From NCBI GenBank assembly GCA_947457545.1, contig CANGXD010000001.1, forward strand, positions 62,001 to 126,000: a DNA stretch of 64,000 nt, written 5' to 3'. The position numbers and the translations under genes are program-made. Source of the DNA: Gemmatimonadaceae bacterium. Lineage in GTDB: Bacteria > Gemmatimonadota > Gemmatimonadetes > Gemmatimonadales > Gemmatimonadaceae. This document shows, one piece after another, positions 34,595 through 36,392 of the stretch. Within the stretch, counting starts at the first letter, position 1. Each line of letters begins with the position of its first letter. Below the pieces are notes generated by a model. It saw nothing but the letters and a program-made list of their open reading frames with translations. It was not told the DNA's origin and did no database searches.

Positions 34595-34649
34595 CCCGCT
34601 CTTAACCGAGAATTGAGGACGCAGAACTGAGAATTCCGAACTCAGCGCT

Positions 34650-34766
34650 GGATAGGTGTGAGAGTCGAGTAACGCAGGGGTGAGAAGTGAGGACCCGCGG
34701 TTGGGGAGACCGCCACCGCAGGTCCTGGCCGCTCGCATCTGCGTGACTCGACTCTCACGCCTATCC
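34650..34766. repeat. Long imperfect palindrome after dcd
   Basis: Outer arms 34650-34677 and 34739-34766 are 28 bases each and complementary with two mismatches. Inside, 34690-34701 and 34715-34726 form a second 12-base stem with one mismatch. Weaker complementarity continues outwards to about 34628 and 34790. As RNA or extruded DNA this is a single long stem. It lies downstream of dcd and could end its transcript, but the size is more like a repeated palindromic element. Confidence 0.85.
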
Positions 34767-34788
34767 GGAGCTGAACTCTGAGCTCTCA

Positions 34789-34856
34789 GCTCTCGCGTCC
34801 GTACCTGACGTCTCAGCCCTCGGCTCTCGCGTCCGTACCTGACGTCTCAGCCCTCG
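34789..34856. repeat. Two perfect tandem copies of a 34-base unit
   Basis: Bases 34789-34822 and 34823-34856 are identical 34-mers (each starts gctctcgcgtccgtacctga). A partial third copy (gctctc) follows at 34857. There are no spacers and only two copies, so it is not a CRISPR array. It adjoins the palindrome and shares its ctgag/ctcag words. Confidence 0.9.
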
Positions 34857-34865
34857 GCTCTCACC

Positions 34866-35483
34866 TTAGCCCCCGGCGTAGATGTATCGGCAGTTTCGCT
34901 CCTGCGCCTGCTGCAGGGTAACGATCATGGCGGGTACCACTTCGACGCCCGGCAACAGGTTGGCGCGCACTTCTTCGCCGAAACTGGTGACGCGGTCGCG
35001 ATCGGCGCGCTGATCTTGGGGAAGGAAACGGCCCCCCGATGAGCGAATGGAATTGGCGCACGCAAGCAAGATCACCTTACGCGACGCGAGCGTCGTAATC
35101 GCATCCCTCATGGGACTGCGGTCCCCCGGCATCCCCATGATCTCCCCAATCGTGGGGTACTTCGCCCAGACGGAGTCGTTGAAAAACCAGCCGATCGAAC
35201 GGCCGTTCAATCCAACGATCACCGTGCAGTCCTGCTCCCGAATCCCGTACGCGGTCTTCTGCGTGTCGAGATAGGTTTGCGCCCAACGGAGCGCGAGGCC
35301 CTCGGTGGGCATATGTGAGTGAAACACCACGCGGTGCGTGCCGGTGACACGCTTCATCCATGGGTCTTCGACGACGGCGTTAGCTGCAGCGGCCCCCACG
35401 GCTTGCGCCGGCACCACGCCGATGGCCGCGCCGATCGCGGCAAGCCGGCTAAGGAAATCGCGACGCGCGGTACTGGTGGTCAT
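34866..35483 (-). CDS. Tat-exported DsrE-like protein
   Basis: 205 residues. A twin-arginine signal (RRDFLSRLAAIGAAIGVVPAQA) directs it, probably folded, to the periplasm. The rest resembles the DsrE/DsrF-like fold: an early strand HRVVFHSH, a central VIVGLNGRSIGWFFND, KVILLACANSI with a Cys near residue 140, and a final VEVVPAMIVTLQQAQERNCRYIYAGG pattern (in parts). DsrE-type proteins carry sulfur on cysteine. Its start overlaps the stop of the diheme cytochrome gene (ATGA), which suggests they act together. The fold call is from pattern only; substrate unknown. Confidence 0.65.
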   Translation of the reverse strand: MTTSTARRDFLSRLAAIGAAIGVVPAQAVGAAAANAVVEDPWMKRVTGTHRVVFHSHMPTEGLALRWAQTYLDTQKTAYGIREQDCTVIVGLNGRSIGWFFNDSVWAKYPTIGEIMGMPGDRSPMRDAITTLASRKVILLACANSIRSSGGRFLPQDQRADRDRVTSFGEEVRANLLPGVEVVPAMIVTLQQAQERNCRYIYAGG

Positions 35484-36310
35484 CTGGCGAGAGAGTCGGG
35501 GGAGAGACGACGAGTGAGCAGCGGTCGTGGCGACGGGATGGATCGTCCTGCACGGCGAGCACCATCGGTGGCGTACGCGACGTCGAGCGGCGCGTCACCT
35601 CGCGGCCAGTCACGTTCCTTGCCGGGATGGTCCTGACGCGGCTGCGATAACACGTACGCCGCGATGTCCGCCGCCTGCTGCGGCGACAGCGTGCCACGTT
35701 GGTCGAACGGCATGTTGTGGCGAATGAACGTCGCGAAGGTGAAGTGCCGAGCCATGCCGGCTCCAATGGAGAAGCTGCCAGCCCCCCAGAGCGGCGGATT
35801 GATGCCCATGCCCTGACCCGCCGCACCATGACAGCGCGCGCATGTGGCCGCATAGCCCTGGCGGCCGCGCCGACCGTCGCCACCGACGCGCACCGTGTCC
35901 ACGCCGGCCGATCGCGGTCGCTCGCGCAATGACTCGATGTACGCGACCATGTCGCCTATATCGCGCCCACTCTCCGGCAGCATGCGGCCGGCAAGGCTGC
36001 GCGCGATGCACTCGTTGACACGACGTGCAAGCGATTCCTCGTATGCGGGGCGCGCACGGAAGCGTGGGTAGCGCGATGCGCTGCCGTTCCACGGCATCGC
36101 CGCGTTGTTGGTGCCGTTATCGAGATGGCACGACACACAGCGCAACCCATTTCCGCTGTACGCCGGAAGCGAATCCGCAAACGCCGTCACCAGCGCTAGC
36201 CCGCGGACCGGATTCCCGGTACTCGCGTTCGCGACCACCGGCGTCCTTTGGGCGCGGATGACGGAGACGCCCACGATAGAGGCGATCAGAACGACCGACA
36301 CGAGTTTCAT
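35480..36310 (-). CDS. TsdA-like diheme cytochrome c (possible thiosulfate dehydrogenase)
   Basis: 276 residues from ATG 36310, with a signal peptide (MKLVSVVLIASIVGVSVIRA). Two haem sites: Cys58-x2-Cys61-His62 in GNGLRCVSCHLDNGT and Cys157-x2-Cys160-His161. Cys101 in RRVNECIARSL matches the position where TsdA of Allochromatium vinosum has its unusual Cys haem ligand, and PPLWGAGSFSIGAGM and RHNMPF match the TsdA second domain. TsdA oxidises two thiosulfates to tetrathionate in the periplasm. The gene follows sdhB after a terminator-like hairpin and overlaps the DsrE-like gene. SoxA-type or other COG3258 cytochromes are alternatives. Confidence 0.75.
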   Translation of the reverse strand: MKLVSVVLIASIVGVSVIRAQRTPVVANASTGNPVRGLALVTAFADSLPAYSGNGLRCVSCHLDNGTNNAAMPWNGSASRYPRFRARPAYEESLARRVNECIARSLAGRMLPESGRDIGDMVAYIESLRERPRSAGVDTVRVGGDGRRGRQGYAATCARCHGAAGQGMGINPPLWGAGSFSIGAGMARHFTFATFIRHNMPFDQRGTLSPQQAADIAAYVLSQPRQDHPGKERDWPRGDAPLDVAYATDGARRAGRSIPSPRPLLTRRLSPDSLAR

Positions 36311-36334: not shown

Positions 36335-36368
36335 CGGGGGCGCCAGCGATAGCTCGTCGGCGCCCCCG
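36335..36368 (-). terminator. Hairpin at the end of sdhCAB
   Basis: A perfect 10-bp G+C stem (36335-36344 with 36359-36368) and 14-base loop lies 24 bases past the sdhB stop on the minus strand, before the cytochrome gene. It probably ends or attenuates the sdh message. No U-tract is seen. Confidence 0.65.
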
Positions 36369-36392
36369 TGATCGTTCGATGTACCCGCCGAA

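Follow-up and report, generated by a model that had tools for sequence, protein, structure and literature searches.

Catalysis by TsdA is described as proceeding through an S-thiosulfonate on a cysteine, and in the model given for SoxAX the thiosulfonate is resolved on a cysteine of SoxYZ (PMC4423706). A cysteine-S-thiosulfonate is also reported for a DsrE-family protein of Metallosphaera, which forms it from tetrathionate and hands the group to TusA (PMC4175335). A further thiosulfate dehydrogenase, TSD, has been identified in A. ferrooxidans as the product of AFE_0042 (PMC6335251). Here we analysed a 64,000-nucleotide stretch of DNA (the window) that holds a tsdA-like gene (35480–36310) and a dsrE-like gene (34866–35483) on the minus strand. 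Relatives of both kinds of thiosulfate dehydrogenase are thereby encoded side by side, and we find this arrangement repeatedly and in two phyla. An earlier note on this DNA had placed the two genes within 34866–36310 and read them as a small periplasmic unit for sulfur oxidation or sulfur sensing. We confirm its observation of the gene pair; its interpretation is partly supported.

The gene pair in the window

The two genes and the sites discussed below are as follows.

35480–36310, minus strand: tsdA-like gene with an ATG start, for a predicted exported di-haem cytochrome c of 276 aa (phmmer, profile, PF21342)
36125–36139, minus strand: haem 1 CxxCH, C58-H62 (sequence)
36020–36052, minus strand: putative active-site arginines R87 (36050–36052) and R97 (36020–36022), at the positions of TsdA Arg109 and Arg119 (alignment)
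36008–36010, minus strand: codon of Cys101, at the position of the A. vinosum TsdA haem-1 ligand Cys123, precursor numbering (alignment)
35996–35998, minus strand: S105, at the position of TsdA active-site Ser127 (alignment)
35828–35842, minus strand: haem 2 CxxCH, C157-H161 (sequence)
35711–35716, minus strand: N199-M200, with M200 at the position of the A. vinosum TsdA haem-2 ligand Met209 (alignment; as described in PMC5146829)
35480–35483, minus strand: ATGA overlap of the tsdA-like stop and dsrE-like start; the plus strand reads TCAT
34866–35483, minus strand: dsrE-fold gene, 205 aa, a distant homologue of TSD-type thiosulfate dehydrogenase, NF052225 (AF2 model, NF052225 match, hhalign)
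35442–35483, minus strand: putative twin-arginine leader, R7-R8-x-F10-L11 (sequence, homologue alignment, TIGR01409)
35058–35060, minus strand: codon of Cys142, the family's only invariant cysteine (alignment, AF2 model)

The overlap of the cytochrome gene with that of a Tat-leader protein, which the earlier note had pointed out, is there in the sequence. The end of sdhB lies 82 bp upstream of the tsdA start, and dcd follows the dsrE-like gene in convergent orientation. Orthologues are present in 15 of 16 other genomes of the genus that were searched, and together with the conserved pairing this rules out a chance ORF. The host is a Gemmatimonas, a bacterium of soil and water; its closest matches among records with a name are Gemmatimonas UKL202c (92%) and a MAG from a pond, the latter with 97% for the cytochrome.

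The spacers on either side of the pair hold repeats and a hairpin. Between the dsrE-like gene and dcd we found a palindromic element (34623–34793) with 84-nt arms that are 76% complementary and separated by a 3-nt gap; since related copies occur at about 31 places in the genome (58 matches, both strands counted), it is a dispersed MITE-like repeat. Its end is overlapped by a 34-nt unit in three tandem copies (34764–34865). Between sdhB and tsdA the minus strand has a GC-rich hairpin (36335–36370) with an 11-bp stem and without a T run, with a z of -2.5 against shuffles that was computed for the 85-nt spacer.

The cytochrome matched A. vinosum TsdA (PDB 4wqc) by phmmer over residues 33–226 (E 4.5e-31), and profile A2, built from 20 cytochrome relatives, did so with an E of 6.8e-62. 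The SoxA-TsdA model PF21342 scored 33.2 bits on it, above the cut-off of 27. In the active-site equivalences listed above, residues of A. vinosum TsdA are numbered on the precursor, as in PMC4423706. All four residues concerned (C101, R87, R97 and S105) are invariant across the 20 rows of the alignment, and Cys101 is also invariant in 10 rows that include other phyla. M200, at the place of the haem-2 methionine that is strictly conserved in TsdA, is invariant as well. With its two CxxCH sites, cysteine haem-1 ligand, two arginines, serine and haem-2 methionine, the cytochrome is, as judged by alignment, a TsdA homologue. The TsdA identity proposed in the earlier note, and its placing of Cys101 where TsdA has the cysteine ligand of haem 1, thus hold at the level of sequence. 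The AF2 model of the cytochrome, made on A2, was weak (pLDDT 64.9, with residues 73–90 under 50); its eight closest chains were all TsdA or TsdBA (Z 15.5–17.6, the next chain reaching 9.4), and even the weak model supports a TsdA fold. The predicted placement of Cys101 at haem 1 is taken from the alignment to the solved TsdA and not from a distance in the model.

The partner protein opens with a putative Tat-type leader (MTTSTARRDFLSRL), in which R7, R8 and F10 are nearly invariant across 28 homologues. The Tat model TIGR01409 matched 14 of these 28 family members at E ≤ 0.1; on the window protein it gave 13.7 bits, below the 16.7 cut-off, with the RRxFL motif conserved. Pfam DsrE models matched none of the 28, and the PF02635 cut-off was not reached. 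An AF2 model made from the 28 homologues had a pLDDT of 91.1 and fitted ST0148 (2pd2) with a Z of 15.2 over 107 residues at 1.4 Å; other fits were to YchN (12.4), the DsrH chain of DsrEFH (10.6) and a TusBCD chain (10.3). Z exceeded 10 for ten rows, made up of DsrE/YchN/TusD-type proteins, entries from structural genomics and a single designed cage (8uja), and dropped to 5.3 for the next row. As modelled, the partner is a member of the DsrE fold outside the Pfam family PF02635, so that the DsrE-like pattern which the earlier note saw in the 205-residue protein is borne out by structure prediction, although Pfam is blind to it. C142 is invariant in all 28 rows; in the model it closes a strand, directly ahead of a helix, and it aligns with the cysteine of 2pd2 (VGCENSIR against LACANSIR).

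The same genome encodes a second, divergent Tat DsrE-fold protein (L002:1195–1929; genome G000, contig C27), which adjoins a protein with a PEP-CTERM-like tail, with no cytochrome within the 3.3 kb seen.

Kinship with TSD-type thiosulfate dehydrogenase

The model NF052225, named 'thiosulfate dehydrogenase', matched the C-terminal part of the window partner (E 1.1e-8), giving 34.8 bits over residues 119–200 against a curated cut-off of 300 that was not reached. It also matched 26 of the 28 partner relatives at E ≤ 0.1, the best at 6.7e-18. No protein in 298 Gemmatimonadota genomes scored over the cut-off, and we therefore refer to the Gemmatimonadota proteins as TSD relatives and not as members. 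Profile A1, built on the partner family, reached a true TSD (E 1.1e-14) on one plasmid, a replicon of Burkholderia stagnalis; this protein gave 399 bits to NF052225. Searches of plasmid records with the single queries P0002 and L018 gave no match, and the L025 query gave three weak ones.

We aligned A1 by hhalign with A3, an alignment of 11 TSD proteins. Ten of these were scanned against NF052225, nine scoring above 300 bits and the tenth, whose start is truncated, 285; the eleventh row (L137) lay outside the scan. The two families aligned with a probability of 99.5% and an E of 4.6e-23 over 157 columns, with Cys142 on Cys203. By this profile comparison the partner and TSD share ancestry in the conserved-cysteine domain, the partner being a homologue of the family and not a member, a kinship that goes beyond the earlier note, which had missed it. 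Because searches of the PDB with P0005 and with A3 gave no match, a DsrE fold for full TSD is predicted by way of its alignment with the family of the window partner, for which the model was made.

In Gluconobacter oxydans, a TSD gene (371 bits) is followed by that for a substrate-binding protein and then by that for a DoxD-DoxA protein. This is the order described for AFE_0042-0043-0044 of A. ferrooxidans, namely Tat protein, solute-binding protein and DoxDA (PMC2754497), and from this match in gene order we infer that NF052225 is the family of AFE_0042. The earlier note's remark that DsrE homologues are normally cytoplasmic needs qualifying here, as TSD proteins have Tat leaders and PF02635 proteins sit in such sulfur clusters, in P. 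fungorum and, with a signal-like leader and alongside TsdA, in Hymenobacter.

Gene pairing across genomes

From a scan of genome contigs we took 80 TsdA-anchored loci, picked without regard to the partner. All are from Gemmatimonadota except L032, from a bacterium whose protein is 97% identical to that of the window, so the count beyond this phylum comes entirely from plasmid records. The partner lies directly downstream on the same strand in 46 of the 80 loci, the HMM edges being 0–143 bp apart. Among the other 34, two have the partner further downstream past an insertion, one has it upstream and one stops at the edge of its contig; the partner is missing from the remaining 30, six of which carry a second TsdA-like gene nearby instead. 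The 46 paired loci comprise 17 of the 20 with the context of the genus and 29 found elsewhere, of which thirteen share one other neighbourhood. When loci were anchored on the partner, tsdA adjoined it in 21 of 29, a set of best-scoring matches and not a random draw, in which L014 is scored as a miss and its matching record L047 has TsdA 3.3 kb off. Anchoring on NF052225 gave TsdA alongside in 6 of 12 loci, one of which (L126) is the same place as L023. No TsdA was seen within 1.5 kb in 8 of the 29 partner-anchored and 6 of the 12 NF052225-anchored loci. The co-occurrence of the two families across genomes that the earlier note had suggested looking for is thus found from both sides, and we reject chance neighbours as an explanation, given how often the pairing recurs.

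The TsdA tree requires 14 or more switches between the paired and the unpaired state (contig-edge row left out). This, and the 30 loci that lack the partner, indicate that the partner has been gained or lost while the cytochrome stayed; the cytochrome hence does not depend on the partner, which is no obligate subunit. A tblastn search for a frameshifted partner in the 30 partner-less loci revealed no clear hidden copy in the subset that was inspected. The matches there fell mostly inside the tsdA region because the stop-to-stop query ORFs carry out-of-frame tsdA sequence.

Some loci differ in layout. Insertions of ~3.3 and ~1.5 kb separate tsdA from the partner in two Gemmatimonas relatives (L047:6765–10115 and L049:4890–6454), and L023:1477–3508 has a tandem pair of DsrE-fold genes followed by tsdA, an order opposite to that of the window. 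We also searched for SoxY (PF13501), which had no match in 30 genomes of the genus, but 14 of 14 control genomes were silent as well, so this does not show an absence of Sox.

Outside Gemmatimonadota, 11 Pseudomonadota plasmid loci had TSD-family genes, and five of them (Caballeronia, two P. fungorum strains, Bosea and M. radiotolerans) also encode a TsdA-like cytochrome in the few kb covered. We count these as four independent cases, since the two P. fungorum loci share gene order and closely similar proteins. In Bosea the cytochrome gene lies 58 bp upstream of TSD, in the same order as in the window. The four Pseudomonadota cytochromes that were aligned keep the haem-1 cysteine, R97, S105 and M200, and have Lys at the position of R87.

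A Hymenobacter plasmid (NZ_CP141185.1, locus L119) clusters a TsdA-like cytochrome with an OprD porin, rhodaneses, YeeE/YedE and DUF6691, and the cluster also holds a DsrE-family protein (PF02635) with a signal-like leader, P0003. It is a possible parallel pairing in Bacteroidota.

A candidate thiosulfate module and known systems

We hypothesize that the pair acts in the periplasm as a thiosulfate/tetrathionate module, with a thiosulfonate passing between C142 and the haem cysteine C101, a reading that we hold about as readily as we doubt it. Thiosulfate would bond to the haem ligand Cys101 as an S-thiosulfonate, and haem 2 (Met200) would pass the electrons on to a carrier, either soluble or in the membrane; the reaction might also run in reverse. 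The DsrE-fold protein, exported by the Tat route as its leader suggests, would be a dedicated but dispensable partner of a likewise exported cytochrome and would contact it directly. Its C142 would accept the thiosulfonate group, or donate it in the reverse direction, in place of a second thiosulfate, in the way proposed for SoxYZ and SoxAX, and would then release the group as tetrathionate or hand it on. In favour are the TsdA identity with its active-site residues, the modelled DsrE fold with invariant C142, the homology to NF052225, the recurrent pairing in two phyla, and the thiosulfonate chemistry described for TsdA, for the SoxAX model and for the Metallosphaera DsrE-family protein. Against this stand the 30 of 80 TsdA loci without a partner, the many Tat DsrE-fold relatives found apart from TsdA, and the weakness of the NF052225 alignment.

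An alternative that we consider unlikely is that there are two parallel thiosulfate dehydrogenases, the DsrE-fold protein being a haem-free TSD of the AFE_0042 type that makes tetrathionate at C142, with the cytochrome mainly taking up electrons. This would agree with the homology of the partner to NF052225, with the TsdA-like cytochromes beside TSD genes in five of 11 plasmid loci, and with the A. ferrooxidans TSD (~25 kDa), which is described as active while reducing neither ubiquinone nor horse cytochrome c (PMC6335251). However, the window partner lacks ~60 residues relative to TSD and its score falls well short of the family cut-off, and the cytochrome has a complete TsdA active site, needless in a mere electron acceptor.

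We see still less chance that the module is mainly a tetrathionate reductase or a protection against tetrathionate, with TsdA working in reverse and C142 intercepting tetrathionate. DsrE3A of the archaeon M. cuprina is described as reacting with tetrathionate and not with thiosulfate (PMC4175335), which favours this possibility and also counts against the exchange module. The cytochrome, moreover, has N199 where TsdA of C. jejuni, which is biased to tetrathionate reduction, has Asn254 and that of A. vinosum has Lys208 (PMC5146829). However, position 199 varies within the cytochrome family, and the exchange of Asn254 for Lys is reported not to have turned the C. jejuni enzyme into an oxidiser (PMC5146829); the residue is thus no predictor of direction, and we do not read the direction from N199.

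It also seems improbable, to a greater degree again, that the DsrE-fold protein, rather than being a carrier, senses sulfane sulfur or serves in maturation by shielding the haem-1 cysteine. Such a role could explain a dispensable protein with one conserved cysteine whose relatives are multi-copy in many genomes, but the window shows no signalling gene between the two genes or immediately next to them, and TsdA of A. vinosum and C. jejuni is not known to need such a factor. That lying behind sdhCAB, which the earlier note had named as neighbour, couples the unit to succinate dehydrogenase has hardly any likelihood and is rejected as genus-only synteny uninformative on function: of the 20 genus loci 19 have sdhCAB directly upstream, but none of the 60 others does (many on truncated contigs), while the pairing persists, and the GC-rich hairpin separates sdhB from tsdA.

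Returning to the exchange of a thiosulfonate between C101 and C142, the pairing suggests that TSD and TsdA, two thiosulfate enzymes found separately and thought unrelated, work as partners. We put forward, tentatively and with more doubt than conviction, that TSD-type and TsdA-type enzymes form one system, in which TSD would be a thiosulfonate-carrying cysteine protein of the DsrE fold with a TsdA-type cytochrome as its natural redox partner, a counterpart of SoxAX–SoxYZ evolved on a DsrE scaffold in Gemmatimonadota and Pseudomonadota. TSD would thereby gain a proposed fold, catalytic residue and electron partner, each of which could be tested with two small recombinant proteins. A search of open-access full text, judged by titles and the openings of abstracts, found no recognisable report of a TsdA/DsrE-fold pairing or of this fold.

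Compared with TsdA of A. vinosum and C. jejuni (PDB 4wqc, 4v2k), the window cytochrome appears the same in its two haems and in the positions of C101, R87, R97, S105 and M200. Unlike TsdA, it adjoins no TsdB cytochrome gene and has that of a Tat-type DsrE-fold protein there instead, and it differs from the A. vinosum enzyme in having Asn for Lys208 and in a C-terminal stretch (residues ~234–276) past the aligned part. With the DsrE/DsrF/TusD family (PF02635; ST0148 2pd2, MTH1491 1l1s, YchN, DsrEFH and DsrE3A) the partner shares, as modelled, the fold and the cysteine motif, whereas it escapes the Pfam DsrE model and has an extra, putatively Tat-type N-terminal leader, an insertion and a predicted periplasmic context. 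The partner resembles TSD (NF052225) in its putative Tat-type leader and in the single invariant cysteine of its C-terminal domain, and both groups are genomically linked to TsdA-like cytochromes; the partner has about 205 residues against about 263 in TSD and, in contrast to the Gluconobacter TSD, is not trailed by a substrate-binding protein and doxDA. Like SoxAX–SoxYZ, the pair would combine a Cys-ligated haem enzyme with a small exported cysteine protein. The likeness of SoxYZ to the DsrE-fold protein is meant as an analogy in how they may work, with no sequence relation claimed, and TsdA is a relative of the SoxA family only.
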